DNA of 64,000 nt, from positions 1-64,000 of the forward strand of contig JAPWKH010000011.1 of NCBI GenBank assembly GCA_028283605.1. Reading direction: 5' to 3'. Shown here in pieces: positions 42,852 to 56,628 of the stretch; within the stretch, counting starts at the first letter, position 1; each line of letters starts with the position of its first letter. Origin of the DNA: Arachidicoccus sp. Lineage in GTDB: Bacteria; Bacteroidota; Bacteroidia; Chitinophagales; Chitinophagaceae. Both the position numbers and the translations under genes were made by a program. The notes under the pieces were generated by a model that was not told the origin of the DNA, ran no database searches, and saw nothing but the letters and a program-made list of their open reading frames with translations.

Positions 42852-43860
42852 ATGTTGGTTATGGCAAAACTTAATCCCACTTTATCCATTTTATTTTGGC
42901 TTAATCGACAAAGAAGCAAAAACGAAACTTTTCCAATTTACTCCCGTATTACTCTGAATGGAAAACGAATGGAACTTTGCACCCATTTATATCTAAATCC
43001 ATCTCAATGGGATCAAAAGAATCAGCGTGTGAAAGGCACAGGTGAACAAGCTCGTAAAATTAATATTTTTCTTACGCAAATATCGGGTCCCTTGCAGGGA
43101 TTATATACAAAATTATCTCTATTGGAGAGCCCGATATCATTAGAAATATTGAAAAGCACTTACTTAGGTAAGAAGATTAATCAGAGAAGTTTATTGGAGG
43201 CTTTTGCATTGCATAACCAAAGATTCTTCGAAAAAGTAGCATCTGGTCGAAATAGTGATCGTACTTACAAAAAGTATGAAATAGTAAAAGAGAAAGTTTC
43301 CTCCTTTTTAAAGGAGATATACAAGTTTAATGATCTTCCCCTGTCTCAAATCCAGTTTAGCTTGACCTCTGACTTTGAGCATTACTTGTGTAACGTGACA
43401 AAAATTGGAAACAATACAGCGATGAAATATATCAAGATCACAAAACAAGTATTGAAGTTCGCCGTTGGCTAGGGATGGATTATCTATAATCCAATTGGAG
43501 GATTCAAGTGCAGCTACGAAAATCCACAAATGGAAATTCTTACTATGGAAGAAATTGAAAGAATTTATTATAAATCTTTACTACCTAGATTAGAGCAAGT
43601 GAGAGATGTGTACCTATTTTGTTGTTTTACCGGATTAGCATTTACGGATGTAATGCAGCTTACAGCTAACAATATTATAACAGGTATTGGTGGTGAAGAA
43701 TGGATTATAACAGAACGTCAAAAAACAGGAGCATTAGAAGAAGTTCCGCTTTTACCACTTGCTCTTGAAATTTTAGAAAAGTACAGATGCAATGCAGTAT
43801 TACAAAATAAGAATCAATTACCCCCCTTGTGTAGCAATCAGCGATTTAATGGCTACCAAA
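42852..43860 (+). pseudogene. Tyrosine recombinase (phage integrase family), interrupted and truncated
   Basis: The frame begins MLVMAKLNPTLSILFWLNRQ, with a SAM-like N-terminal domain. It is cut by an in-frame TAG at 43470-43472 (QVLKFAVG-stop-GWIIYNPIGG) and continues in the same frame into a catalytic-domain start, with the FCCFTGLAFTDV box and QKTGALEEVPLLPLALEILE. After SNQRFNGY (~43860) family similarity stops, before the HxxR and Tyr catalytic motifs. Both lesions make the enzyme inactive. Its position beside accessory genes suggests that the 42.8-56.6 kb region arrived by integration. Confidence 0.7.
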
Positions 43861-44384
43861 ACAAGCAGATGGTTTATGGTATTGCTTTTATGTGCCACAC
43901 ATCAAAAGTGGTGGTCAATGGAAGTGAACTGGGTAAAAACTATTCTGCCACTAGAATACAGGAACAATTGGGGATTAAAGGTCTACAGGAAAGAAAGCAA
44001 AAGTTGTTGGATCAAAAAAGGTTATCTGCATTTGCAAAGGGTATTCCTACTCAAGGAAATGCGGCGAACCTGCTTTTCTATATTTATGGCAATGGCTTTA
44101 AACTGGAGGCTTTGAAAGGGAAATTCCAGGATACTAATTATTTTCTATTCTTTCAAGACGAAAATAAAATTACTTCCATCGGACTTTATGGTTCAATCAG
44201 AGCCTATTTTGAAGAGCGTAACATTACACCTGAACTATGTGCGCATCTAAATGACCATGTTAAAGATTATGGAATTAACCTAATACAAGAGTATATTCAT
44301 GGTTTATTTACCCAACAATCCGAAACTTTATTCGGACATATTACTCCAGATAAAAAGCAAAAAGAAAGAAAACTAAACTGGTAA
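43861..44384 (+). pseudogene. Foreign C-terminal segment joined in frame to the recombinase remnant (mobilisation-protein-like)
   Basis: About 174 residues with no integrase features: CHTSKVVVNGSELGKNYSA, then TRIQEQLGIKGLQERKQKLL, a central QGNAANLLFYIYGNGF and a basic KKQKERKLNW end. The VVNGSELGKNYSATRI stretch resembles the C-terminal part of relaxase/mobilisation proteins of Bacteroidota elements. I only infer this, at low certainty. The junction with the recombinase near 43860 is in frame. Confidence 0.3.
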
Positions 44385-44428: not shown

Positions 44429-44455
44429 GTAAGGAATTCTTGGTTATCACGTCTT
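44429..44455 (+). promoter_or_regulatory. ECF-type promoter of the TPR lipoprotein gene
   Basis: GTAAGGA at 44429-44435, exactly 14 bases, then CGTCTT at 44450-44455. Same architecture as six other promoters of this region. Start codon 19 bases downstream. Confidence 0.65.
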
Positions 44456-44474
44456 TATTAAAAAATAAGAATTA

Positions 44475-45773
44475 ATGAAACGTGTGCATATTCGGTCTTC
44501 ACTTTTTATTATAACAGGGTTAGCTTTTCAAAGCTGCCATAATAACAAAAATTTAGTTGAAAAATCCTTTATTGATAGCTTACAAACTCTTTATACCCCA
44601 GATTCACTATTAGCTTCTAATGAACGAATTTTACATTTCTGGCAAGATAGAATTAGTCCAACCAATCCTGGCAATATTAATGAATTGCAATATGCTGGAA
44701 CATTAATCAACAGATTTAAATTAGCTGGTCATATACAAGATTTAGACAGTGCAAATGCTATTTTGAAAAAAGTGGATACAACATTTGCACATACATTAGC
44801 CGCACCATTGATGAGTTTGGTTTCCCTTTCAATCATGCGTCATCGTTTTGCTGAAGGAGATATTTTTTATAAAAAAGCATGCACGATTGGGATTAAAGCG
44901 TATCAGAAAAACGCTATAGGCTTTGACATTGCTTTTGAATTGGGCTACTATGGTCAGGCGGGGAATTTGTTGAAAAATATGAGCGGACTAAAAGACTATA
45001 ACTATTATTTCAGAAGGTCAAAATTTGACCATTTGAATGGTAAAATGGATAGCACACTAAGTGCGATGCAACAAGCCATTGTGCTGGCAGGGAAAAGTCC
45101 CTATTTGCAAAACCTTGCTTGGTCTATGATGGGCGACTTAGAAGTACATCAAAACAATTTATCTGCGGCATCAACAGATTTGAAAGAAGCCATAAGACTA
45201 AATCCAGGTGATATACATTCTATATTACAATTAGGTTGGGTAACACTGGTTCAAAATAATGATACAGTCGATGCCAAAGCACTGTTTGAAATAGCAAAAA
45301 AACGAAATGAATTGCCAGACCCTTACTATAAATCATATCAAATGGCTCAATGGCAAAAGGACAATCAAAAAGCGTTTTTTTATGCTAGACTTTTTGAGCA
45401 AAAATCCACAATGTACCAATATGGATCAATGTATAGCAAATACTTGATTGAATTATATACTACAATTCTAAATCAACCTCAAAAAGCCGAAAATTTAGCT
45501 TTCGCTGAGCTGAAAAATCGGGCAACACCACAGACCTATACTTGGTTTGCTTATAGTTTGTTGTGTAATCATCAGAAAGAAAAGGCCTACAAAATATTTC
45601 AGCAATATATAGCTGGCAAGCCTATAGAAGGCATTGAACTGTACTACGTCGGAAAAATATTGAAGAGCGTTGGTCATGGTTTGGATGCAGAAAAATGTTT
45701 TGATGCCGCTATGGAAAACAAATATGATCTAAGCCCTTATATGATTAATGATATCAAAAAGATGGAAGAATAG
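44475..45773 (+). CDS. TPR-containing lipoprotein, part of the DUF4331/HupE gene group
   Basis: 432 residues. The signal is followed by AFQSCHNN, with the lipidated Cys at residue 21. The mature protein is helical and TPR-like (YYFRRSKFDHLNGKMDSTLS, AWSMMGDLEVHQNNLSAAST, LKEAIRLNPGDIHSILQLGW, CFDAAMENKYDLSP) with about six repeats. TPR lipoproteins act as scaffolds in periplasmic or surface assemblies. It carries an ECF-type promoter like the DUF4331 and other genes here, so it probably acts with the adjacent HupE/DUF4331/TonB receptor genes, which are convergent to it. Confidence 0.75.
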   Translation: MKRVHIRSSLFIITGLAFQSCHNNKNLVEKSFIDSLQTLYTPDSLLASNERILHFWQDRISPTNPGNINELQYAGTLINRFKLAGHIQDLDSANAILKKVDTTFAHTLAAPLMSLVSLSIMRHRFAEGDIFYKKACTIGIKAYQKNAIGFDIAFELGYYGQAGNLLKNMSGLKDYNYYFRRSKFDHLNGKMDSTLSAMQQAIVLAGKSPYLQNLAWSMMGDLEVHQNNLSAASTDLKEAIRLNPGDIHSILQLGWVTLVQNNDTVDAKALFEIAKKRNELPDPYYKSYQMAQWQKDNQKAFFYARLFEQKSTMYQYGSMYSKYLIELYTTILNQPQKAENLAFAELKNRATPQTYTWFAYSLLCNHQKEKAYKIFQQYIAGKPIEGIELYYVGKILKSVGHGLDAEKCFDAAMENKYDLSPYMINDIKKMEE

Positions 45774-45820
45774 CGCAAAAAATTTATTCATTTAGATTCT
45801 TTGTAAATGCTCCTTTTCAT

Positions 45821-45855
45821 AAAAAGTCACTTTGAGTAAATCAAAGTGGCTTTTT
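45821..45855. terminator. Bidirectional terminator between convergent genes
   Basis: AAAAAGTCACTTTGA at 45821-45835 pairs with TCAAAGTGGCTTTTT at 45841-45855 around GTAAA. It serves the TPR lipoprotein and the HupE-type gene. Confidence 0.85.
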
Positions 45856-45860
45856 ATTAT

Positions 45861-46511
45861 TCAAAAAATTCGCTGTATGGTCCAAAAAATTGCAACTAAG
45901 GCTATGACTGTTGATATAGGAATTACAATAACCTTCTTATAATCAACTTTTTTGGAAAGCCATTTTATCAAAATAAAATATGCGACCAATATAATGGTTA
46001 CTTGTCCTAATTCGACACCAATATTGAACATAACAATTCCTAATAAGTAACTATTTTTCGGTAATCCCAAACCTTGCAATGCACTTGCAAATCCCATTCC
46101 GTGGATAAGCCCAAACACAAAAACGACTATTAGCCGGCTTGGCTTCAATTTATTTGAAAAAATATTTTCTAATGCGACTAATAATATTGAAATGGAGATA
46201 AGTGGTTCAACTATAGTTGAAATTGGATTTATTAAGCCAAACATCGACAACCCTAATGTAATGGAATGGGCAATTGTGAAAGTATTTGCCTGAATCAATA
46301 AAGGTTTCAATTGCGGACTCAACAAGAGCAAAGAAAGTATAAATAATATATGATCAAAACCAAGTGGTAATATATGCCTATAACCCAATTTAAGATATTC
46401 CCAAGCAACAGAACTAGTTGATAATTGGGATAATTCGTTTACAACCACGTGCGCTTGACTCGAAAATGGAATAAGTAAAACTAAGCCTATAAAAAACAGT
46501 ACGTATTTCAT
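45861..46511 (-). CDS. HupE/UreJ-type (HupE_UreJ_2) membrane protein
   Basis: 216 residues from the ATG at 46511; an upstream start in the same frame is possible but the signal is better here. A signal peptide (KYVLFFIGLVLLIPFSSQA) is followed by about six membrane helices with the family motifs GYRHILPLGFDHILFIL, FTIAHSITLG and FGLIHGMGFA. HupE/UreJ proteins are putative nickel/cobalt or other metal permeases. The His/Asp residues in the first helices fit metal binding. It ends the DUF4331 operon, 64 bases after the gene at 46575. Confidence 0.85.
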   Translation of the reverse strand: MKYVLFFIGLVLLIPFSSQAHVVVNELSQLSTSSVAWEYLKLGYRHILPLGFDHILFILSLLLLSPQLKPLLIQANTFTIAHSITLGLSMFGLINPISTIVEPLISISILLVALENIFSNKLKPSRLIVVFVFGLIHGMGFASALQGLGLPKNSYLLGIVMFNIGVELGQVTIILVAYFILIKWLSKKVDYKKVIVIPISTVIALVAIFWTIQRIF

Positions 46512-46574
46512 AAATGGAATTAAAAACGAATGGCTGAGATAGTCCCAGCCATACATTCGAATAATTATTTACAC

Positions 46575-47111
46575 TTACCAAGGTGATGCCTCGTAAGGAA
46601 AACTATTAGAGAAATCTTTGTCATTCTTATCGACGTGATCAGATGTAAGACCAGGATTGGATGTTCCGTCTATTCCACCAAAAATCAGTGTGAAATTGTC
46701 GTCAATTACATCATCCGCTAAATTTCTTCCAGTAAGGACATGGGTACCGTCGTAGAAAGTAGTGGGACCTGTCAAAGAAACATTCAATACATCAGTGGAT
46801 AGTGCTCCTGCAAATTGATCTGCGGTCAACCCTATTTTATTAGTTGTATAGTTCGGATTTAAAGCCAATAATTTGTTTTTAATTTCTGTACCAAAAATGC
46901 TGGCCATCTGTGAAGGCTCTGTTTGGTTAAATTTGTCATGCTCTGCGCTGCTGATGAATACAATGTTTAAACCTGGGCGAGCAACTTGATCTCCTTGTAC
47001 TGCGAAAGTAACGCCTGTGTTAGGATCTGTTGGTGTAGAATTGTTGTCTTTGTGACATGCAGTAACACTTACAGCCATGATCAACAATGATGGATAAAAT
47101 ATTTTTTTCAT
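46575..47111 (-). CDS. Lipoprotein corresponding to the C-terminal half of DUF4331
   Basis: 178 residues, lipobox AVSVTACHKD with Cys19. The C-terminal part, with TGRNLADDVID (128-138), GGIDGT, HVDKNDKDF and a final SNSFPYEASPW, matches the end of full-length DUF4331 proteins (RRLADDVVD..FPYLA-type), while the N-terminal half of DUF4331 (HGDAP) is in the preceding gene. So DUF4331 is split over two exported polypeptides. Function unknown; the operon suggests a role with the HupE-type permease and TonB receptor. Confidence 0.75.
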   Translation of the reverse strand: MKKIFYPSLLIMAVSVTACHKDNNSTPTDPNTGVTFAVQGDQVARPGLNIVFISSAEHDKFNQTEPSQMASIFGTEIKNKLLALNPNYTTNKIGLTADQFAGALSTDVLNVSLTGPTTFYDGTHVLTGRNLADDVIDDNFTLIFGGIDGTSNPGLTSDHVDKNDKDFSNSFPYEASPW

Positions 47112-47130
47112 TTTGGATTAAATTTGTGAA

Positions 47131-47811
47131 TTAACTTTTTTGTTTTGTTTCAAGCCAAACATTGATAGTGCTTCCTGGTCCTAGCATTGTTTTAGGTACT
47201 TCTACTACGACGCTTAAGACATTTGTTCCAGCTAAAGCATCCGTTCCAGGATTATTGTAACTTGTTGCTTGTCCAGAAATTATTTTCAAATATTGTGGCA
47301 AATCGAAAAAGAAAGGATCATCTCTTGGACCTGCGAAAGCCTTAATTCCCTTGCTGCTTTTTGCAACTGTTGGTGTTGTCGCAGTGTAAGGTGTAATGTC
47401 TACAACTGCAGTTGCATCACTATTAATCGTACTAGATGTAGTACCTACAGTTGCTGGTTTTATTGGACCATAGATATACATTTTACCATTTTTGGGCACA
47501 CATTGAATGACTAGATCTTCTTTGTTGTCATTGTCCGTGTCAATCTTAAATTCTAACAAAGTTTTTTCGTCAAATGCGGCTGTCTTGGTAGCTTCTGGAC
47601 TTAATAAGCCTTGCACATTTCCCACAAAAACTAAATTACTGTTGTTTTCTGGACTTTGAAATACGTACAAGTCCGTAATGTCTGTTGTTTTGCCACTTAC
47701 AGCGGGAGCATCACCGTGGTCGGAAGCCCATACGATTGCTCCGCCTCCAAGCATTGCAGTAAGAATACTCGCTACGATGATGGATTTTCTTTTTTTCTTG
47801 TTTAATTGCAT
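47131..47811 (-). CDS. DUF4331 protein, N-terminal half
   Basis: 226 residues with an N-terminal membrane/signal segment (IIVASILTAMLGGGAIVWA) directly followed by the DUF4331 hallmark SDHGDAPAVS (HGDAP at 32-36), then DITDLYVFQSPENNSNLVFV and FAGPRDDPFFFDLPQYLKII, another conserved element. The family is exported and of unknown function. It begins an operon with the next lipoprotein (19 bases apart) and the HupE-type gene. Its promoter matches the local ECF sigma pattern and lies in the 66-base gap after the TonB receptor gene. Confidence 0.88.
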   Translation of the reverse strand: MQLNKKKRKSIIVASILTAMLGGGAIVWASDHGDAPAVSGKTTDITDLYVFQSPENNSNLVFVGNVQGLLSPEATKTAAFDEKTLLEFKIDTDNDNKEDLVIQCVPKNGKMYIYGPIKPATVGTTSSTINSDATAVVDITPYTATTPTVAKSSKGIKAFAGPRDDPFFFDLPQYLKIISGQATSYNNPGTDALAGTNVLSVVVEVPKTMLGPGSTINVWLETKQKS

Positions 47812-47832
47812 AAAATAAAATTTGTATCTACA

Positions 47833-47859
47833 TAGACGTATTACAAATCTGATCCTTAC
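47833..47859 (-). promoter_or_regulatory. ECF-type promoter of the DUF4331-HupE operon
   Basis: Reading the minus strand: GTAAGGA (47859-47853), 14 bases, CGTCTA (47838-47833). Start codon 21 bases further. Confidence 0.7.
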
Positions 47860-47877
47860 AAAAAATTTACATTTTCT

Positions 47878-50133
47878 TTAGAAAAAATAAGATAAGTGCA
47901 AAAGACTCGCAAATTTTGTTCCTGGAGTAAATGCAATACCATCAACAGGTTGTTGACCCTTAAGTCTGAAATAAGTATCAAATTGCGTTTCCTTCCATTT
48001 GGTATTGAACAAATTATTAATTGTCATACCAATTTCAAACTTTTTAGTTGTATAGTTTAAAACGAAATCTGTAATAAAATAACCTTCTGCAGTCAGACTA
48101 TAATCATCATTGGCAGGTCGATCTCCCATATACCTATATCTTACACTACCATTGAATCCATTTTTAATAATAAATGTTACGCCTCCCGTACTACTCCATA
48201 TTGGAGCTAACGGAATATAGTTGTTATGCTTGGGATCGTCCATGGATCGTCCATGTGCATAGTTGATATCCATATCCAAATATAAAAAACTAAAAGGCTG
48301 GGATCGTCCAGAAAAATCGATTCCAATTCTTCTTGTGCGCCCACTAAATTCCACAGAACCGCCGTCGCCGCCATACACATATTCCTTTTGCAAATAACTA
48401 TACCAAACTGCCGCATTCAACAATAAATTCTTTACAGGTTTGGCAACAATTCCCAAGTCCGAACCATAGGCTGCTGGCAAAGTTTCTTTGCCACCTTCCA
48501 CAACAACTACGCGTGCATCATTGGAATGAAATCCTTTGCCTGCAAACAAATATAGTTGCACATCCTTACCCACGAGATAGCTCAATTTAAATTTGGGACT
48601 TACTACAGCATTGTGTGCAGTGTACTTTCCTATGCCAGGCAGAGTAGTGTCTGTAGCCAGTTGATTATCATATAAATAATGAAGATAATCGTAACGAACA
48701 CCAACATCTAATGTCCATTTTGGCGAAAAAGTAAATTCTTCATTCAGATAAATATCAGCTTGCTGTTCATTTATATTGCCTGATTTTATAGGATCTATAA
48801 TTGTGTAACGATTCACAGTGTGTGACAAAGAAATATTTCTTACATAATCCAATCTTGTGTTCCAGCCCAAAGTAGATTTGACTTTCACATTTCCAAATGA
48901 ATTTTCTTGTGCATACGATCCATTATATCCAACCAAATTTCGATGTTCTCTTTGTCTAAGTTCGTCTCCATTGATACTATCCGTTAAGAAAAAAGTAAAA
49001 TTGGAATTAAGATCAAATGTGTAATGACTAAAGTAGAGTTGGTTCTGCAAAATACCCCCATTTTGGAAATGGGTAATCAATTGTGCATTGCCATTAGTTC
49101 GATTGGTATTCCCACCTTCATTAGGATCAATCGCTCCGTAAAATCCAATCAGACCTTGTTCCACGGCGATTTCTGGTATTTGTCCTGATGCCAACCAGCT
49201 GCTATGCATTGTAGAAGCACTCAATGTTAATTGGCTATTTCCACTAATTTGACCAGTATATTTTGTGAAGAAATTGAAGCGCTTAAAATGTTGCGGATGA
49301 TCAAAATATGCATTACTATATCGATATTCGGAAGCGATATACCAAGAGTGTTTATCTTGAATGGATTTGGGTAACAAACTAAACATTCCCAACGCTCTGT
49401 AGGTATCGAATTGTCCACCTTCGACTTTAATAACATTTTTATCCAAAGCATTTGTAGTATGAAATGCTGCAAATCCAGTTACGGCCAAATCACCTTTTGA
49501 TGTATTATACATTCCTTTTTCATAGTTGGTACTTTCGATGGTTTCAGGAATGATAAAATGACTATCTGCGTAACCTTGTCCATGTGCATGAGAAACCATA
49601 TTAATGGGCATACCATCGACAGAAAGATTAATATCTGTGCCGTGATCATTGTCAAAACCTCTTAAAAAAATCTGTTCTGCCTTTCCACCACCTTGGTGTT
49701 GCCCTATAAACAAACCTGGAACTATTCGTAAGACTTCCTGTGAATTAGAAACACCACGTAGCCGAATATCCGTCTGACTAATTGCATGATATGGATTGAG
49801 ATTGTTGGCAGTAATTACGACTTCAGACAACATCGTTTTGGATGGAATGAGATAGAATATAGTATAGTCAGAAACAGTATCCATATTCCAATGTATTGGT
49901 TCAAATCCTATAGCCTGAACATAAAAACTATCAGCGCGTATTGCTTTCCCAAGATATTCGAAATTGCCATTATTGTCTGTAATGCCTATAAGTTGCTTCT
50001 GCTTTTTAAAAATGCTAGCATTTGCAATAGGAACCTTTGAATCCTTGTCCAGAAAATGTAATATTTTATGTTTGGTTTGCGCTTGAGTTATTGAAAAAAA
50101 TAGTATTGAAAGTATAAGAAAACGAAATTTCAT
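47878..50133 (-). CDS. TonB-dependent outer membrane receptor with carboxypeptidase-regulatory-like N-terminal domain
   Basis: 751 residues: signal peptide (1-18), carboxypeptidase-regulatory-like beta-sandwich (~24-105, HKILHFLDKDSKVPIANASI), plug (~115-225), barrel to residue 751 with terminal Phe. The plug contains a His-rich motif, SHAHGQGYADSHF (181-193), which is seen in receptors linked with metal uptake. It lacks a SusD partner. It is upstream of the DUF4331-HupE operon on the same strand but has its own upstream region with palindromes and no ECF-type promoter, so it may be controlled separately. A ligand cannot be named. Confidence 0.9.
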   Translation of the reverse strand: MKFRFLILSILFFSITQAQTKHKILHFLDKDSKVPIANASIFKKQKQLIGITDNNGNFEYLGKAIRADSFYVQAIGFEPIHWNMDTVSDYTIFYLIPSKTMLSEVVITANNLNPYHAISQTDIRLRGVSNSQEVLRIVPGLFIGQHQGGGKAEQIFLRGFDNDHGTDINLSVDGMPINMVSHAHGQGYADSHFIIPETIESTNYEKGMYNTSKGDLAVTGFAAFHTTNALDKNVIKVEGGQFDTYRALGMFSLLPKSIQDKHSWYIASEYRYSNAYFDHPQHFKRFNFFTKYTGQISGNSQLTLSASTMHSSWLASGQIPEIAVEQGLIGFYGAIDPNEGGNTNRTNGNAQLITHFQNGGILQNQLYFSHYTFDLNSNFTFFLTDSINGDELRQREHRNLVGYNGSYAQENSFGNVKVKSTLGWNTRLDYVRNISLSHTVNRYTIIDPIKSGNINEQQADIYLNEEFTFSPKWTLDVGVRYDYLHYLYDNQLATDTTLPGIGKYTAHNAVVSPKFKLSYLVGKDVQLYLFAGKGFHSNDARVVVVEGGKETLPAAYGSDLGIVAKPVKNLLLNAAVWYSYLQKEYVYGGDGGSVEFSGRTRRIGIDFSGRSQPFSFLYLDMDINYAHGRSMDDPKHNNYIPLAPIWSSTGGVTFIIKNGFNGSVRYRYMGDRPANDDYSLTAEGYFITDFVLNYTTKKFEIGMTINNLFNTKWKETQFDTYFRLKGQQPVDGIAFTPGTKFASLLHLSYFF

Positions 50134-50149
50134 AAATATTCAGGATGGC

Positions 50150-50192
50150 ACTATTTTAAAATAGTAGTACAGTTAATAATGTGACAACATTA
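50150..50192. promoter_or_regulatory. Two palindromes upstream of the TonB receptor
   Basis: ACTATTTTAAAATAGT at 50150-50165 is a perfect 16-bp palindrome, and TAATGTGACAACATTA at 50177-50192 has 6-bp inverted arms. Both lie within 60 bases of the receptor start and could bind a repressor, for example a metal- or redox-sensing one; no regulator is assigned. Confidence 0.45.
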
Positions 50193-50217
50193 TATATTAT
50201 AAATAGAATGCAAAACA

Positions 50218-50979
50218 CTACAGCCTTAATGTTGAGACTAAACCTCCATCCACAGGAATAGTTGCCCCATAAATATAACTTGCATCTTGCGACACAAGAA
50301 AGAGTGATGTTTGCGCAATATCTAAGACGTTACCACTTCTTTTGGCTGGAATCTCGTCAAATGTTTTCATAATAGGAGAACCTTCTACCATGAATGCTTC
50401 TACCATAGGTGTGTGAATTAGTCCAGGTGCAATAGCGTTCGCACGTATACCAGCATGGCCAAATTCGACATTGAGTTGTTGGGTCAATCCAATAATAGCA
50501 TGTTTAGTCATCGTATAAGCAATACCTCCACCGCCACCAACTAAGCCTGCTGCTGAAGCCATATTTACAATAACGCCATATTTATTAGCAACCATATTTT
50601 GCGTAACATATTTTGTCACTAGGTATGTTCCTTCGATATTAACTTCAATAATTTTTTTAAAATAGGAATATTCGGATTGACTCATTAACACAAGGTTGTC
50701 AAAAATTCCAGCAGTATTACAAAGTATACTTATTGCTCCATATTTTTCCAAGCTCTTTTCATATAGATACTTTACAGATGATTCATCCGTAATATCTGCT
50801 GTAATGCCAATTGCGTCACCTCCATTGGCAATAATTTCTTGGATCGTTTCTTGCAATTTTTCAGATTGTACATCTGCGGCAATGATTTTTGCACCTTCTT
50901 TTGAAAATAACAAAGCTTGAGCTTTGCCAATTCCGGAAGCTGCACCTGTAATCATGGCTACTTGATTAGATAATTTCAT
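50218..50979 (-). CDS. Short-chain dehydrogenase/reductase with ECF-type promoter
   Basis: 253 residues. Features are TGAASGIG (cofactor), CNTAGIFDN in place of NNAG, VNMASAAGLVG with a glycine run, YTMTK as the catalytic Tyr/Lys, RANAIAPGLIHTPM and a C-terminal VDGGLVSTLRL. The NTAG variant of NNAG is slightly unusual. The ECF-type promoter just upstream links it to the sigma factor regulon; the substrate is unknown. Confidence 0.9.
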   Translation of the reverse strand: MKLSNQVAMITGAASGIGKAQALLFSKEGAKIIAADVQSEKLQETIQEIIANGGDAIGITADITDESSVKYLYEKSLEKYGAISILCNTAGIFDNLVLMSQSEYSYFKKIIEVNIEGTYLVTKYVTQNMVANKYGVIVNMASAAGLVGGGGGIAYTMTKHAIIGLTQQLNVEFGHAGIRANAIAPGLIHTPMVEAFMVEGSPIMKTFDEIPAKRSGNVLDIAQTSLFLVSQDASYIYGATIPVDGGLVSTLRL

Positions 50980-51001
50980 AAAAATTTATTAGTTGCCTAT
51001 A

Positions 51002-51028
51002 TAGACGAAAATTGAAGTAATTCCTTAC
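51002..51028 (-). promoter_or_regulatory. ECF-type promoter of the SDR gene
   Basis: Minus strand: GTAAGGA (51028-51022), 14 bases, CGTCTA (51007-51002), start codon 22 bases downstream. It is back to back with a plus-strand copy at 51049. Confidence 0.75.
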
Positions 51029-51048
51029 TAAATAATTAAACTTAGTTC

Positions 51049-51075
51049 GAAAGGAACAATTTATTGATCCGTCTA
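51049..51075 (+). promoter_or_regulatory. Divergent ECF-type promoter of a truncated leader
   Basis: GAAAGGA (one mismatch) at 51049-51055, 14 bases, CGTCTA at 51070-51075. It points into the 51080-51260 region, which carries only a short ORF. Confidence 0.55.
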
Positions 51076-51145
51076 ATTGATAATCCACAATAAAATGTAA
51101 ACATCAATAATCACAACTAACAATCTTATAGAAAGCTTCTACGCC

Positions 51146-51170
51146 GACCTCCCAATATATAAAGGAGGTC
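51146..51170 (+). promoter_or_regulatory. Hairpin that masks a Shine-Dalgarno sequence
   Basis: GACCTCC at 51146-51152 is complementary to GGAGGTC at 51164-51170, with an 11-base AT-rich loop. GGAGGT is a strong ribosome-binding site five bases before the ATG at 51176; such sites are rare in this window. The hairpin would hide the site until it opens, as in RNA thermometers or other leader switches. Confidence 0.45.
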
Positions 51171-51175
51171 TAACT

Positions 51176-51259
51176 ATGCTATTTGCTACTGAAGAAAATT
51201 TTCATTCATTTCCTATAGATTGGCAAGTGATATTGACGGATATAATTGATCATAGGTGA
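51176..51259 (+). other. 27-codon ORF behind the masked ribosome-binding site, probably a truncated gene start
   Basis: [20 protein letters not shown] and TDIIDHR follow, then TGA. The frame overlaps the end of the msrA remnant on the other strand, and the junction near 51243 marks where both genes were cut. It has a promoter-like site and a Shine-Dalgarno sequence but no recognised family. Confidence 0.3.
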
Positions 51260-51600
51260 TAACTTTTGGATTAAACACAATATTGCTAGCATCTGCATGA
51301 TCTGTAGTTCCTATGCAAACGAGCCTATAACTAGGATTAGCAACAGTACCTCCTGTAAATCCAGATGTGACAGAAATAACTCCCTTTAATTCTTTAAACT
51401 GCGCTTCTACACACCAGAAACAACCCGCTGCAAATGTAGCAGTATCCACCTTTTTTTGTTTGATCTCTATTTGTAGTGCTTTGTTCGATTGACCCGAAAG
51501 CATTACTGTTCTTCAATTTCGTGCTCGGTTGGCTGCAATCATATATTGGGAGTGCAAATAGGAACAAAAGTTTCTATATTTTATTTTTGATGATTTTCAT
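51213..51600 (-). pseudogene. msrA: Peptide-methionine (S)-S-oxide reductase, decayed
   Basis: The intact part (51213-51503) reads [20 protein letters not shown], with the catalytic GCFWC at ~27-31, then [14 protein letters not shown] and [13 protein letters not shown], and then leaves the family. About 100 residues of the enzyme are missing at the 3' end. Upstream in a different frame from ATG 51600, MKIIKNKI-stop-KLLFLFALPIYDCSQ encodes a lipoprotein signal with a nonsense codon. So it has a stop, a frameshift and a 3' truncation. The intact gene would have encoded an exported reductase of oxidised methionine. Confidence 0.8.
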
Positions 51601-51713
51601 TTTGCTGAATTATTTACTATGCAAATTGACGAAGCTTATAAGAACGCCTTACATATTTGGTGATGATAGTTATGATTTTAACATTTAATTTTTGCTACAA
51701 TTTATTAGGTGTT

Positions 51714-51740
51714 GTAAGGAACCAAACTTTATTTCGTCTA
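51714..51740 (+). promoter_or_regulatory. ECF-type promoter of the ABM-domain gene
   Basis: GTAAGGA at 51714-51720, 14 bases, CGTCTA at 51735-51740; start codon 52 bases downstream. Confidence 0.7.
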
Positions 51741-51792
51741 TGATTAGGCAATTGAATCTTATAATGATTTATTAAATATTAAAATTTTCAAA

Positions 51793-52086
51793 ATGATCAC
51801 AAAAGCCTTATTAGCAAAGTTAAAAGCAAAGCCAGGAAAGGAAGAAGATGTAGAAGTTTTTCTAAAAAGTGCATTACCATTGGTTCAAGCCGAGAGCGGA
51901 ACAATTCATTGGTTTGCTATACAATTTGAACCAGGCACTTATGGCATTTTCGATACTTTTGAAACCGAAACTGCACGAATAACGCATCTTTCAGGGGAAG
52001 TCGCAAAAGCGTTGATGGCAAAGGCACCCGACTTATTCGCTGTTGCTCCAGATATTGTCATATTGGATGTTTTTGCTCAGAAATAA
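51793..52086 (+). CDS. Antibiotic biosynthesis monooxygenase (ABM)-domain protein
   Basis: 97 residues, ferredoxin-like ABM fold: LLAKLKAKPGKEEDVEVFLK, LVQAESGTIHWFAIQFEPGT, YGIFDTFETETARITHLSGE. ABM proteins include quinol monooxygenases and small dimeric enzymes for redox-active or toxic compounds. No further reaction can be assigned. It has its own ECF-type promoter and ends at a terminator. Confidence 0.88.
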   Translation: MITKALLAKLKAKPGKEEDVEVFLKSALPLVQAESGTIHWFAIQFEPGTYGIFDTFETETARITHLSGEVAKALMAKAPDLFAVAPDIVILDVFAQK

Positions 52087-52094
52087 ATAAGGTG

Positions 52095-52126
52095 GCGTTG
52101 TGTTTTATCTCACAACGCTTTTTTTT
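52095..52126 (+). terminator. Rho-independent terminator after the ABM gene
   Basis: GCGTTGTG at 52095-52102 pairs with CACAACGC at 52111-52118, followed by eight T. Confidence 0.85.
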
Positions 52127-52140
52127 AAGAACAAAAGCAC

Positions 52141-52446
52141 TTACATATCATTATTTATTCTTTCCTCAATCAATTTTTCCAAAGCTTCTTTTTTTGCTTC
52201 ATCCATTGAGATCGTGCGGTCTTTTCTATTATGGAAAATATTTACCATCATTTTTTGCAATAATTGGCTTTGGGATTTGTACAATGTACATAAAGGGCAG
52301 ATAGCCAAATGCAGTTGCATCACCCACCATTCATTAAAAGTAAGACGGGTATTTTCCTTTTTTTCTATCAAAAATGTAGCGTGCTTGCAAGTTCCCTGAG
52401 CGTGTGCATTGATGATCGTGTTTCTTATGAGTTTATTTTTTATCAT
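52141..52446 (-). CDS. Zinc-type anti-sigma factor (ZAS-like)
   Basis: 101 residues from the ATG at 52446, which shares one base with the stop of the sigma gene (TGATG), so the two are translationally coupled. The motif HLAICPLC near the middle is the Hx3Cx2C zinc-binding anti-sigma signature, and TCKHATFLIEKK precedes it. Helical, no membrane segment, so it is a cytosolic anti-sigma that probably responds to a thiol or redox signal. Its partner is the ECF sigma factor upstream. Confidence 0.75.
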   Translation of the reverse strand: MIKNKLIRNTIINAHAQGTCKHATFLIEKKENTRLTFNEWWVMQLHLAICPLCTLYKSQSQLLQKMMVNIFHNRKDRTISMDEAKKEALEKLIEERINNDM

Positions 52447-53012
52447 CACCAATTATTTTGAAAGCATTCTCTTAAATTTAGTTTTGCCCGATGGATAATC
52501 ACCCAATAATTGGAGTTGGTAATCTTCATAGTTTCGCAGATGACATTGCTCTCTTCCTCATCGATATGTTTGAGTGAAAAAACGGCAGCCCATAGTTTGG
52601 GTAATTTTTTCATACATAGTTCCAAAATTTTGTAAAATTCTTTCGCGTGTAATTTCTCGTCAGCCCTGTTGGTAAAGGGTTTGGGGGCAAATTCATTTTT
52701 CCAAATACCATTCTCGTCAAAAAAATCTACCGTTTCATTTTGTTCTGGTACATTCACCATTACTTTGTTGAGTCCAGACGCTTGTTTGCGATAATGATCA
52801 ATGATTTTATTTTTCAAAATGGTGCGCAACCAAGTCAATTCACTCGAACGGCCTTCAAAAGAATCTTTACTTTCCAAACCAGAAAGAAAAGTGTCTTGCA
52901 CCAAATCATTTGCCAACTCCACATCATCTACACGCTGGTGAGCAAAGTGAAACAGATAATCGGCATACTCTTTTACCCATTTATTGGCTTGAATATTTCT
53001 ACTTGAATTCAT
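52446..53012 (-). CDS. ECF-type RNA polymerase sigma factor
   Basis: 188 residues. Region 2 (KEYADYLFHFAHQRVDDVEL, NDLVQDTFLSGL, ELTWLRTILKNKIIDHYRKQ) and region 4 (YKILELCMKKLPKLWAAVFS, VICETMKITNSNYWVIIHRA) are clear. A longer linker includes GIWKNEFAPKPF. It is probably the factor that reads the local GTAAGGA-N14-CGTCTA promoters; this is inference from co-location. It is co-transcribed with its anti-sigma factor and probably downstream of the DUF6799 gene's ECF-type promoter, giving autoregulation. Confidence 0.88.
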   Translation of the reverse strand: MNSSRNIQANKWVKEYADYLFHFAHQRVDDVELANDLVQDTFLSGLESKDSFEGRSSELTWLRTILKNKIIDHYRKQASGLNKVMVNVPEQNETVDFFDENGIWKNEFAPKPFTNRADEKLHAKEFYKILELCMKKLPKLWAAVFSLKHIDEEESNVICETMKITNSNYWVIIHRAKLNLRECFQNNW

Positions 53013-53037
53013 ATCGGCGTTATTTTTTACCAGAAGA

Positions 53038-53064
53038 GGTAAGCGCGACGAATCACCGCTTACC
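53038..53064. repeat. 8-bp inverted repeat between the DUF6799 and sigma genes
   Basis: GGTAAGCG at 53038-53045 and CGCTTACC at 53057-53064, 11-base loop, no T-run. It may be an attenuating hairpin that lowers sigma expression relative to the upstream gene. Confidence 0.4.
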
Positions 53065-53092
53065 TGAAGTTAAAACATAAATGATGAAACAA

Positions 53093-53416
53093 CTATTTTC
53101 CTTTGTACATCGACATTTTACCACTCATAGTCACCATTTCGTTTTCCTTTATCTTAATTTTTTTACCATCAGGAAGATTTACTGAACCGTCTGTATTGAC
53201 TTTCGCACCGTTGTTCAATTTTACTGGTTCAGTCATTGGAGAAGGTGTACCATCAACGATTTTCATCATTTTACCTTTGTACATCATTACGAAGTTTTCC
53301 GCTTTAGCACTGTCCGCAAGAGCTGAACAAGAAGATTTATCGTGTGTTTTGCTCGTTTGCGCGTTTGCAACGATACCAATAGTTAGTGCGAATGCAGCGA
53401 TCAATAATTTTTTCAT
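53093..53416 (-). CDS. Exported DUF6799-type protein
   Basis: 107 residues: signal peptide (KKLLIAAFALTIGIVANA), then short beta repeats YKGKMMKIVDG, MTEPVKLNNGAKVNTDGSVN, LPDGKKIKIKENE and MVTMSGKMSMYKGK, characteristic of the DUF6799 domain. It contains a CS pair after the signal. It likely lies in the periplasm. Function is unknown. An ECF-type promoter directly precedes it, and transcription probably reads on into the sigma gene 80 bases downstream. Confidence 0.75.
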   Translation of the reverse strand: MKKLLIAAFALTIGIVANAQTSKTHDKSSCSALADSAKAENFVMMYKGKMMKIVDGTPSPMTEPVKLNNGAKVNTDGSVNLPDGKKIKIKENEMVTMSGKMSMYKGK

Positions 53417-53446
53417 AATTTAATATTTTTAAATGATTTTTTAGAA

Positions 53447-53473
53447 TAGACGAAGGCGGAAAAATTTCCTTAC
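53447..53473 (-). promoter_or_regulatory. ECF-type promoter of the DUF6799-sigma-anti-sigma operon
   Basis: Minus strand: GTAAGGA (53473-53467), 14 bases, CGTCTA (53452-53447). Start codon 30 bases downstream. Confidence 0.75.
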
Positions 53474-53481
53474 AAAAATTT

Positions 53482-53838
53482 TTAATAGAAATAAACTTCT
53501 TTAACAATCTTGTCTTTTACAACAGAAAATACGCAGATTTCGGTAAATACAATGCGACCGTTGCCGATAAAATCAGCGTCCAATGTGAACGTGAGCGCGA
53601 TCGAATTGCCCGCAACTAATGGATCGGAAATTTCCAAACCATTTACCTTTTCAATAGATGCTCTGAAATTGGCGCCTTTCTGTAAAATATTTTTCAATCC
53701 TTCTGTTTTTTCTGGAAAAAAAGAAGTATTTGGCTCAATACTTACGGCATCCTCAGCCAAAAAAGTTTTTTGCGCTTCTTCAAAACTGCCTGCTCTAAGC
53801 AAGCTTACCAATCTGGTTGCAATTTCTTGTGTTGTCAT
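53482..53838 (-). CDS. SnoaL-like (NTF2-fold) small protein
   Basis: 118 residues, no signal peptide. SnoaL/NTF2-like pattern: EIATRLVSLLRAGSFEEAQK, FLAEDAVSIEP, DPLVAGNSIALTFTLDADFI, RIVFTEICVFSVVKDKIVKE. Cytosolic; members isomerise or bind small polyketide-like or steroid-like ligands, or are binding proteins only. ECF-type promoter upstream. Confidence 0.8.
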   Translation of the reverse strand: MTTQEIATRLVSLLRAGSFEEAQKTFLAEDAVSIEPNTSFFPEKTEGLKNILQKGANFRASIEKVNGLEISDPLVAGNSIALTFTLDADFIGNGRIVFTEICVFSVVKDKIVKEVYFY

Positions 53839-53871
53839 AATTGTAATGTTTTTGTGATTTAATCCATTACA

Positions 53872-53898
53872 TAGACGCAGGTGGAAAAAGTTCCTTAC
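53872..53898 (-). promoter_or_regulatory. ECF-type promoter of the SnoaL-like gene
   Basis: Minus strand: GTAAGGA (53898-53892), 14 bases, CGTCTA (53877-53872), start codon 33 bases downstream. Confidence 0.75.
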
Positions 53899-53915
53899 AA
53901 GAATCTTGAAAAAAA

Positions 53916-54383
53916 TTATGGTATCATAGCCATTCTCTGTGCAACTATAATTTTGGTTTTTGGATTGTCGACAGAATCGGCAACAGGGGTTAGCGGAATG
54001 CCTTCGTATTTGGAATAATGCGACTGATTGTTTTGAAATTGAAGGCGCTCAACTCGTACAATTTTTTGGGGAATATTGGCACCAAACCATTGCGAATCTG
54101 GCTGTTCGCGCCAAGTGACTTCGTACAAAATACTTCCATTTGGATAATGACCATCTGTATTTTTTAAGGCATATTGAAAAGCGGTGTCATTCCCATAAAG
54201 TGTCGACATCAGGCTGTCTTTTGGATAAATAGTTGTTGTAAATGGATGCATCAACAATGGATTTTCTGGTAATTGATCACCAGGATGCAAGGACGCCTCT
54301 GTATTGATTCTTAAATGTTTAGGTTGGCAACTTGTCCAAACAAGCAGCGTAAATGCAGCTATTATAAAACTATATATTTTCAT
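53916..54383 (-). CDS. Cytochrome P460-like lipoprotein
   Basis: 155 residues, lipobox LLVWTSCQPK with Cys19. The central part, MSTLYGNDTAFQYAL, YPNGSILYEVTW, SQWFGANIPQKIVRVE, resembles the cytochrome P460 domain, but the haem CxxCH motif is absent, so haem may not be bound. It starts 10 bases after the haem-binding protein's stop, and the pair is one operon. Confidence 0.55.
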   Translation of the reverse strand: MKIYSFIIAAFTLLVWTSCQPKHLRINTEASLHPGDQLPENPLLMHPFTTTIYPKDSLMSTLYGNDTAFQYALKNTDGHYPNGSILYEVTWREQPDSQWFGANIPQKIVRVERLQFQNNQSHYSKYEGIPLTPVADSVDNPKTKIIVAQRMAMIP

Positions 54384-54393
54384 TGTTTACTGT

Positions 54394-55323
54394 TTAAAAG
54401 TGAAGGTCTAATGGTTTGGCAAAAACAAAATCATTGTTTTTAGTAGATTGGTGGCAAGATTGACATTCGGTTGTGAACAATGCATTTTTTCCATAAGGTT
54501 TTAAATCCTCATCAAGCCATCGAGCCCAACCCCAACCATCTGTCGAAGCATATTTTTTGCGGTCTTTGATCATAATTTCTACCTGCCAAAATGGTCCTGT
54601 TGTCACGCTGCCATTCGGCTGCACAATTTGTTTCCACTTCGCTTTTGCCAATATTGTCCCGTCTGGCCACGGATTGGTTTGCCTGTTTCGTATGGCATCT
54701 TCTCCAATTTTATTTATAAAAATCATTCGAAGTGTGCCCTGCTCAAACCGATCGGAAATGCTGATAATTTTCCAATCGCGATAATTCCCCAAATATGGAA
54801 TACCATTCGGCGCATCCGCTACTTTTTTAGGATGTTGAAATGCCGCAAATTGCTTAATTTGTTGTATTGTCAAACTGTTATCTGAAGGGTTTCTCATGGA
54901 AAGAGAAAGGGCAAAATTTTTGAGTATATCCAATTGCACATTCGAAATTTTGGCACCAGAATGAATCATCGTGTACGAAGACAAAGGCATTTCGTTCTTA
55001 ATGATTTTATTAAGTCCATAATACAAAATCGTTCTTTGTTGTGTGGGCGGAAGCGTGTCCCAATTAGAAAAATTCAAAGCTTTTCTACCTGTTTGAATAT
55101 GATCTGAAACAAAGAAATTAGCAGGCGTTAATTGGTCGTACCAATGCAAATTGATTTGGGAAGAATGACAATCATAGCAGCTATTTTGTAAAATCGCTGC
55201 CACATCTTCAGGTACATTTTTCAATGGCCGCATGGGCGCATTAGACAATTTTTCGGGTCGAAATTCCTGACTAATTCCTGCAATAATCAAGATGATGATT
55301 AAAATAATATGCCCTTTTTTCAT
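54394..55323 (-). CDS. c-type haem protein: Haem_bd domain fused to cytochrome P460 domain
   Basis: 309 residues. A short N-terminal membrane anchor (GHIILIIILIIAGISQEF) is followed by the haem-binding domain with SCYDCHSSQINLHWYDQ (CxxCH at 48-52) and DHIQTGRKALNFSNW. The C-terminal P460-type part (WKIISISDRFEQGTLRMIF, TNPWPDGTILAKAKW) ends with CQSCH (287-291). Both CxxCH sites can attach haem c, so it should be periplasmic and depend on the ccm system; ccm genes occur at 57.9 kb. It is divergent from the LytTR sensor. Confidence 0.82.
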   Translation of the reverse strand: MKKGHIILIIILIIAGISQEFRPEKLSNAPMRPLKNVPEDVAAILQNSCYDCHSSQINLHWYDQLTPANFFVSDHIQTGRKALNFSNWDTLPPTQQRTILYYGLNKIIKNEMPLSSYTMIHSGAKISNVQLDILKNFALSLSMRNPSDNSLTIQQIKQFAAFQHPKKVADAPNGIPYLGNYRDWKIISISDRFEQGTLRMIFINKIGEDAIRNRQTNPWPDGTILAKAKWKQIVQPNGSVTTGPFWQVEIMIKDRKKYASTDGWGWARWLDEDLKPYGKNALFTTECQSCHQSTKNNDFVFAKPLDLHF

Positions 55324-55521: not shown

Positions 55522-56628
55522 ATGAAAAAAGCCAGACTTTATACTTGGACCTTGCTCGGAATTAGTTTGATCGTATTAATCGTCGGGCTATTGACTTTCC
55601 GCTATTTTTACCTTTCTGCACAAACGACTATTTCGGAAAGTAAAATGACCAATGCCCAACGTGAAAGTCGGGAAGTGGGGCGATTATTGGAACAACAATT
55701 GCAAAGTGGTCTGCCTCGGGAAAAGGTGATTCAAAACCTGCAACAAAGCATCCTTAATACCGATGCGCAGAGCGAATATCTCTGTATGTACAACCAAAAA
55801 GGCGTGGAATTGTGCAATCCAAATCCGGCGTTGGTGGGAAAATTGATTGACACTTCGGATTCAAAAGTGAAGCGTAACGAAGAAAATATTCCATTTAGTG
55901 AACTGCTGAAAGAAGGAAAATCCAATACAACCGTTCGGAATTTCCCTAAATCTCGAAATAGAGCGTCCGAAATTGTGAGCGTTTATCCAGTGATTGGCAC
56001 CGATTGGATGGTGGCAACCCACGCCAATATTGGCATGGTTCAGTCTGAAATGGATAATTTGTTTAGGCAGTTTCTGTTGGGTACAATATTGATGATAATT
56101 GTCATTGCAGGTTTGTGCTATTTGCTTATTCGATTGATTTACAGAAAGTACGAACAAGCAACTGATTTGCACATAGCTTCTTTGAATAAAGAATTGAATG
56201 AATTAAATGTGATGAATAATCACCTTAAAACGTTGCAATCTCAATCCAAACCATTTGAAACAGTTGTTCCCGAAAATGAAGAAGATATTAAACGGAAACG
56301 AATGTTAGTCTATGAAAAAAATGAACTCATTTCGATTGAAACGCAAGAAATTTCTTGGATTTATCTGGATGAAAACACTTTGATATTGACTACATTTTTA
56401 CAAAAAAAATACACTATAAATGGCAGTTTGGATGAGTTGATGAAACAGCTGGATAATGATATTTTTTACCGAGTGAACAGGCAATGCATTCTCAATGTAA
56501 ATGCGATTAAATCCATCTTGCTATTTGGTAGAAATCAATTGGAAATTCTCACCAATCCAACCACGCCCAAAGAAATAATCATCAGCAAAAACAAAGTGGC
56601 TGAGTTTAAAAATTGGTTGGATAGATGA
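55522..56628 (+). CDS. Membrane-anchored LytTR-type transcriptional regulator with extracytoplasmic sensor
   Basis: 368 residues. TM helix ~11-30, an extracytoplasmic sensor with Cache-like character (~31-175, SEIVSVYPVIGTDWMVATHA), a second TM helix ~180-205, a coiled-coil linker, then a C-terminal LytTR DNA-binding domain (~262-368: EISWIYLDENTLILTTFLQK, FYRVNRQCILNVNAI). Signal sensing and DNA binding are in one protein, without histidine kinase or receiver domains. It is divergent from the haem/P460 operon and most likely controls it or the nearby genes. Confidence 0.85.
   Translation: MKKARLYTWTLLGISLIVLIVGLLTFRYFYLSAQTTISESKMTNAQRESREVGRLLEQQLQSGLPREKVIQNLQQSILNTDAQSEYLCMYNQKGVELCNPNPALVGKLIDTSDSKVKRNEENIPFSELLKEGKSNTTVRNFPKSRNRASEIVSVYPVIGTDWMVATHANIGMVQSEMDNLFRQFLLGTILMIIVIAGLCYLLIRLIYRKYEQATDLHIASLNKELNELNVMNNHLKTLQSQSKPFETVVPENEEDIKRKRMLVYEKNELISIETQEISWIYLDENTLILTTFLQKKYTINGSLDELMKQLDNDIFYRVNRQCILNVNAIKSILLFGRNQLEILTNPTTPKEIIISKNKVAEFKNWLDR

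Follow-up and report, generated by a model that had tools for sequence, protein, structure and literature searches.

Seven copies of a promoter-like motif lie within 10 kb around a single pair of genes for an extracytoplasmic function (ECF) sigma factor and its anti-sigma factor in Arachidicoccus sp., and the question raised by this locus is whether that sigma factor reads them, making the surrounding genes one regulon. The locus lies in the first 64,000 nucleotides of contig JAPWKH010000011.1 (assembly GCA_028283605.1), which were analysed as a whole and are called the window here. An initial annotation, made from the sequence alone, had proposed such a regulon. We assign a probability of about 0.87 to the reading that the cluster is a self-contained ECF regulon, that a motif copy embedded in sister sigma genes would drive their anti-sigma genes, and that the clade of the window's own sigma gene is without this copy.

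In the proposed mechanism, the zinc-type anti-sigma factor would release the sigma factor, and the freed sigma would recruit RNA polymerase to promoters of the form TGTAAGG-N15-CGTC, of which there would be seven, probably eight, in this 10-kb stretch. One of these would drive its own DUF6799-sigma-anti-sigma operon, giving both positive and negative feedback. The other predicted targets are the genes for SnoaL, ABM, SDR-TonB receptor, DUF4331-DUF4331-HupE and the TPR lipoprotein, together with two apparently decayed ones, a DUF3095-like stub and an msrA remnant. The motif would be an old promoter of this sigma group, and in most of the sampled sister genes the copy in the region 4.2 codons appears placed to drive the anti-sigma gene alone; most members of the window's clade would instead use a promoter before the sigma gene or operon.

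Motif sites in the cluster and in related genomes

All seven sites proposed by the initial annotation were found exactly at their coordinates and strands (Table 1), and GNAAGGA-N14-CGTCTW is exact at every one of them, with identical spacing. The whole-genome scan that it had recommended was run as a pattern match over the organism's own genome (35 contigs, 3,588,324 bases) and returned 7 matches, all of them the cluster sites, while the backwards control gave 1. The statement that there was no further copy held for the full pattern genome-wide; it had overlooked a weaker eighth site inside the cluster, with two mismatches to that pattern and an exact match to the shorter core known from relatives, TGTAAGG-N15-CGTC. 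The shorter core has 6 matches in the genome, all within the cluster, and none in the control; the sites at 51002 and 51049 fail it because the leading T or GT is absent. When up to two mismatches to the full pattern were allowed, the window held 12 matches against 2.99 expected, a number reached by none of 100 shuffles. Sites with one mismatch were considered as distant members of the regulon and rejected, since the 7 extra matches on other contigs, against 20 control matches, amount to background.

The distances to genes given in the initial annotation were close to those measured, 21-54 bases for the six intact targets and 102 for the stub, and its target list left out the TonB receptor gene. 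Site 3 probably serves this gene as well, because it lies 84 bases beyond the SDR gene, in the same orientation. The small truncated open reading frame (ORF) listed under site 4 turned out to be a 27-codon stub with a weak likeness to DUF3095 (tblastn E 0.09); a DUF3095 gene of Mucilaginibacter (PF11294, E 3.8e-33) also stands under the motif. The msrA gene near the weaker site is broken: PMSR profile positions 1-68 are in the window, and the genome has just one further match, covering positions 120-153, on contig C30 (C30:255677-255781).

Table 1. Motif sites and genes of the cluster, in window coordinates; gene identities are from Pfam and NCBIfam profile scans.
Feature	Position	Strand	CGTC to start codon (bases)	Remarks
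Site 1	44429-44455	+	21 (ATG)	exact; upstream of TPR lipoprotein gene
Site 2	47833-47859	-	23	exact; upstream of DUF4331a-DUF4331b-HupE
Site 3	51002-51028	-	24 (SDR)	exact; upstream of SDR-TonB
Site 4	51049-51075	+	102	exact; upstream of 27-codon stub
Site 5	51714-51740	+	54	exact; upstream of ABM gene
Site 6	53447-53473	-	32	exact; upstream of DUF6799-sigma-anti-sigma
Site 7	53872-53898	-	35	exact; upstream of SnoaL_5 gene
Site 8 (weaker)	51626-51652	-	124	TGTAAGGC-N14-CGTCAA; upstream of msrA remnant
TPR-like lipoprotein gene	44475-45773	+		weak TPR_2 match below cutoff; relatives in L008, L009, L010
HupE/UreJ_2 membrane protein	45861-46556	-		PF13795, E 1.3e-42; predicted operon with DUF4331 pair
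DUF4331 protein b (family C-terminal part)	46575-47111	-		PF14224, E 2.5e-9
DUF4331 protein a (family N-terminal part)	47131-47811	-		PF14224, E 1.9e-29
TonB-dependent receptor	47878-50133	-		PF00593/PF07715; predicted second gene of SDR operon
SDR oxidoreductase	50218-50979	-		PF13561, E 2.7e-54
27-codon stub, like start of DUF3095	51176-51259	+		read directly; weak tblastn match to L009 17893-17946
msrA remnant	51213-51503	-		PF01625, E 2.8e-25; first 68 of 153 profile positions
ABM-like (antibiotic biosynthesis monooxygenase) protein	51793-52086	+		PF03992, E 2.5e-4, just below cutoff
Zinc-type anti-sigma	52141-52452	-		HxxxCxxC with upstream Cys; NF052368 44.1 bits, cutoff 50
ECF sigma factor, TIGR02943-like	52446-53012	-		TIGR02943, E 1.2e-44; without embedded site
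DUF6799 small secreted Met/Lys-rich protein	53093-53416	-		PF20606, E 3.3e-22; predicted head of sigma operon
SnoaL_5 protein	53482-53838	-		PF20409, E 4.3e-25

Related clusters were found in Chitinophaga costaii (locus L008), Mucilaginibacter sp. OK283 (L009) and bacterium A37T11 (L010), the loci of the first and the last beginning at a contig end. Relatives of the 11 intact cluster genes number 11 in Mucilaginibacter and 9 in each of the other two; C. costaii is without the TonB receptor and has its SDR at 25% only, and A37T11 is without SDR and SnoaL. Conservation upstream of orthologues had been suggested as a check, and sites do precede related cluster genes in all three organisms: GTAAGG-N15-CGTC occurs 5, 6 and 4 times at the three loci, and all 15 sites precede cluster genes (DUF3095 counted). 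The motif is kept upstream of the DUF4331, ABM and DUF6799 genes in all three and upstream of SnoaL in C. costaii, and the TonB receptor gene has its own copy in Mucilaginibacter and A37T11. Across 59 genomes (the organism's own and 58 relatives) the exact GNAAGGA-N14-CGTCTW pattern was present in 13, scattered and with at most 3 sites in each genome other than its own. A regulon spread across the relatives' genomes was therefore rejected, and the distribution of the cluster looks patchy, since no other genome has more than 3 exact sites. Exact copies standing outside the sigma gene were also seen near distant sigma genes, at 10848 in L079 and at 2819 and 6199 in L087, a Calditrichia genome.

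A motif copy inside sister sigma genes

When the exact motif of the initial annotation was scanned over sister loci, matches turned up inside sigma genes. GTAAGG-N15-CGTC lies within the sigma coding sequence in 66 of the 81 genes of a first set (the window's and those of L008-L087), spanning the Cys-Lys-x-Leu-x-Ile-x-x-Ser-Asn codons of region 4.2, which we take to be the helix-turn-helix; Sigma70_r4_2 covers residues 129-179 of the window's sigma protein. In a larger set of 173 distinct genes (again with the window's), the relaxed form TGT(A/C)AGG-N15-CG(A/T)C was found inside 107. Sediminibacterium goheungense (L029) and Ferruginibacter paludis (L026) are examples of sister strains whose sigma gene carries an embedded site. 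The distance from the end of CGTC/CGAC to the end of the stop codon is 76 bases in 80 of the 108 relaxed matches and 79 in 16; the other 12 lie elsewhere, one of them at 303 bases. For each of the 81 genes of the first set, an ORF with HxxxCxxC begins close to the sigma stop, from 34 bases before it to 70 bases beyond it, with starts set mechanically at the first start codon. From this placement the embedded copy appears to be aimed at the anti-sigma gene, and if transcription started 6 bases downstream, the leader in front of that gene would be about 70-90 bases long. Such a circuit would likely raise the inhibitor without raising the sigma factor.

The bases of the embedded copy are constrained beyond the protein sequence. 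In the 173 genes, Lys is encoded by AAG in 110 of 114 cases (31.7 expected from locus codon usage), Cys by TGT in 149 of 164 (85.4 expected), and Ser is preceded by an xCG codon in 133 of 154 (25.6 expected), the residue of that codon varying between Ser, Ala, Pro and Thr. When the set was reduced to 76 genes by clustering at 60% identity, the three synonymous bases of the motif came out on top of 682 column-by-third-base tests (z 11.1, 8.5 and 5.3; next highest 4.8). A FastTree tree points to these same three bases: residues 147, 146 and 153 have the lowest number of changes per taxon within 48 A/G-ending columns, 47 C/T-ending columns and 70 fourfold columns, respectively. The 58 genes that were sampled by profile, and not by DNA pattern, agree (AAG 29/30, xCG 37/48). 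The same codons could be kept in sister genes by codon-pair preference, mRNA structure or translation pausing in region 4.2, and other codons do depart from usage, at residues 161 and 158 (z 4.8 and 4.7). We hold this to be unlikely, as the same codon contexts lack this bias in 1,311 mechanically called flanking ORFs, where Cys-Lys followed by E, V, A, D or G reads TGTAAG in 4 of 77 cases and, of 5,906 NCN codons that precede Ser, 626 have G at the third position; moreover, the constrained bases are those of the group's promoter at the exact spacer, and the window clade is without them.

This clade comprises 13 sigma genes, none with an embedded copy, and 11 of the 13 have a promoter site upstream of sigma. 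The window's own gene reads TGC GAA ACT ATG AAG ATT ACC AAC TCC at the corresponding codons. None of the 107 genes that carry the embedded copy has a relaxed site within 600 bases upstream of sigma, against 12 of the 66 that do not carry it; 11 of the 12, L137 being the exception, belong to the window's clade. It may be that the window lineage moved from feedback through the anti-sigma factor only to a promoter before the sigma gene or operon, and then gathered targets. Eight clade members (L011, L028, L090, L096, L103, L117, L129 and L160) have CGAC instead of CGTC. By eye, a TGTAAGG-N15-CGAC site heads a small Met/Lys-rich protein in L028, L090, L103, L129 and L160. Such sites also head proteins named by eye as SEGCSSCPPAD in L028, L090, L096 and L103, and as DoxX-like in L011.

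A second kind of variation concerns the -10 element. Where residue 154 is Thr and not Ser, the embedded -10 reads CGAC. The flanking site is CGAC in 5 of 5 genes with CGAC inside, and when CGTC is inside, the flank reads CGTC in 19 genes and CGAC in 8 (p 0.006, uncorrected for descent); this table was drawn from the 107 embedded genes with a TGT(A/C)AGG element, less 73 without a flanking site and 2 with both kinds. Because region 4 is not expected to contact the -10, the covariation fits a working promoter, and it is suggestive only, as relatedness could produce the same pattern. Covariation of the -35 letter with Lys/Gln at residue 147 was too thin to use, AAGG inside going with 36 AAGG and 2 CAGG flanks and CAGG inside with 1 CAGG. 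On balance we favour, with less confidence than we have in the regulon, the wider proposal that in Bacteroidota, Ignavibacteria and their neighbours the sigma factor's target promoter sits in its own helix-turn-helix codons, that this private anti-sigma promoter constrains the protein at residue 154, and that the window clade has escaped from it.

The probable reader of the motif and its known counterparts

The initial annotation offered recognition of the sites by the local ECF factor as a conjecture, and the comparison across genomes has strengthened it to a well-supported prediction, because the motif accompanies the sigma gene in relatives, a spacer of 15 is strongly preferred, and Neisseria sigma-E has the same arrangement. 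Near 172 distinct sigma genes besides the window's, with the sigma gene itself excluded, TGTAAGG-N-CG(A/T)C gave 75 matches at spacer 15, compared with 0-1 at any of the other spacers in the range 9-23. In the parts of the N. meningitidis and gonococcal sources available to us, the sigma-E consensus is GTMAGBWTT / CGTCTAAH with 12-13 bases between and a start 6 bases downstream, the regulon is very small with its own operon (with doxX) and msrA/msrB as strongest targets, and the msrA/msrB start has been mapped in gonococci (PMC2893595, PMC3240639). GTAAGG-N15-CGTC has the same core and spacing as that published promoter, and in both systems, as far as these accounts go, a zinc-type (HxxxCxxC) anti-sigma gene lies directly downstream of sigma. 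The gonococcal sigma-E gene is 36% identical to the sigma gene of L014. Where msrA/msrB is a target there, an msrA remnant stands under the weaker site here, and the predicted targets differ from those described, being DUF6799, SnoaL, ABM, SDR, the TonB receptor, DUF4331, HupE and TPR genes. The DUF692/DUF2063/DoxX operon, which for Neisseria is suggested by the name NGO1945_C, was not found among the scanned cluster genes of the window.

An alternative is that the seven sites are real promoters served by a different sigma factor or by an activator, which would make the nearby sigma a bystander. This has in its favour that in L196 and L197 DUF4331-TPR genes stand beside a different pair resembling sigma and anti-sigma, but we regard it as more improbable still than codon preference: the motif goes with this sigma gene in distant genomes, the sigma-E promoter with its start mapped at msrA/msrB has the same core (PMC2893595, PMC3240639, as seen in part), and over spacers 12-18 the motif is absent from the four DUF4331 loci outside the cluster (L195-L198). 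The DUF4331a-DUF4331b-TPR-like trio of L196 and L197 is divergent to the different sigma and likely anti-sigma genes (named by eye), so that these DUF4331-TPR genes seem to have changed regulators. That the sites are copies of a dispersed repeat or mobile element is hardly credible, even with the 48-base likeness between two of them that suggests one duplication and the split tyrosine recombinase adjoining the cluster, as the spacers between the two elements differ from site to site, three other organisms retain sites, with other spacers, upstream of related genes, and the flanks had already been seen to differ at most sites. The likeness is between the SnoaL and DUF6799 promoters (53871-53918 and 53446-53493), which have a 48-base stretch in common at 81%; a promoter duplication is suggested.

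Several points weigh against a local regulon with an anti-sigma promoter embedded in the sister genes. The window's sigma protein scores below the curated TIGR02943 cutoff of 162.2 bits (152.4, or 153.6 in the genome scan), and matches over this cutoff occur in 9 of 295 genomes of the class. Not even the relaxed embedded motif is present in 66 of the 173 genes, the strict full motif is present in only 16 of the 58 profile-sampled ones, and the expected codon counts derive from the codon usage of short loci. Proteobacterial homologues were rejected as a source of the embedded copy, with 0 of 7 carrying it. A second strict site, 253-451 bases past the sigma stop, was found in only 32 of the 104 embedded-site loci with enough sequence. 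The window clade was delimited after the fact from the loci with an upstream site, with L137 left out, and the Fisher values come from related sequences and are uncorrected for descent; within the clade, the site of A37T11 stands before DUF6799, at a distance of more than 600 bases from the sigma gene, and no site was seen at L162. Finally, a tie between the genome's own bufferin locus and this sigma factor was rejected, as the DUF692 gene lies on contig C10 and the 3.8-kb locus has no motif.

Bufferin (MNIO/DUF692-DUF2063-DoxX) clusters enter the comparison through a sister gene. The portion consulted of PMC12452194 places sigma factors and NrsF in Buf1 clusters. The sister sigma gene L016 precedes an operon of this kind (PF05114, PF09836 with NGO1945_C, PF07681): by Pfam, at this one annotated locus among those with the second site, a Cys-rich precursor, DUF692/MNIO, DUF2063 with NGO1945_C and DoxX follow the anti-sigma gene. 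The window regulon differs in having no bufferin genes. For the window, the signal may be envelope metal (copper) or oxidant stress, because the zinc-type anti-sigma, the msrA link and the bufferin operon at the sister locus point there.

The closest precedent for the embedded copy is in C. glutamicum, where a SigH-dependent rshA promoter within the sigH coding sequence is thought to shut the response down (PMC3489674, seen in part). The likeness, an anti-sigma promoter inside the sigma gene, would extend to the sister genes here; the window's own sigma gene is unlike sigH, with no promoter sequence inside its coding sequence. The sigma factor and motif are different, sigH-rshA also has four housekeeping promoters, and the part of that account available to us reports no wide conservation or synonymous constraint (PMC3489674). 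Because of this rshA promoter the principle of an anti-sigma promoter in a sigma gene is known, and what this analysis adds is the sigma group, the extent and the measured constraint. Our literature searches, mostly without subscription journals, found no embedded promoter recognised for this sigma family; PMC10771440 and PMC13171946, as far as consulted, concern other intragenic promoters, and a term search of PMC8103513 gave no match. The same searches returned no account of the gene set of the cluster and no paper naming DUF4331. The claim that the stress response is undescribed stands only for the gene set, which appears new; ECF factors of this sort are already known to use the motif core, and the regulator too belongs to a known type.

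Neighbourhood and meaning of the cluster

Between the convergent ABM and anti-sigma genes there is a terminator-like hairpin on both strands (52094-52119). Adjoining the cluster is a tyrosine recombinase gene (Arm-DNA-bind_5, SAM-like; 42852-44384, + strand) apparently split in two ORFs, the second of which has no Pfam match, and no tRNA that could be an integration site was found in the window. Directly upstream of SnoaL lies a pair of haem-binding/cytochrome P460-like genes (53916-55323, - strand) without the motif, and beside the cluster a membrane protein (55522-56628, + strand) combines a weak sCache-like part with a LytTR DNA-binding domain.

If the regulon is as proposed, a whole ECF regulon with its obvious regulator would be legible from one 10-kb stretch, and its uncharacterised targets, DUF4331, DUF6799, HupE and ABM, would become testable as a single pathway. 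An embedded promoter kept over phylum-scale distances would be a clean case of selection at the DNA level on a protein gene. The feedback wiring, with the anti-sigma factor induced alone or jointly with sigma, may be predictable from sequence, and the window clade would offer a testable evolutionary switch between the two feedback designs.

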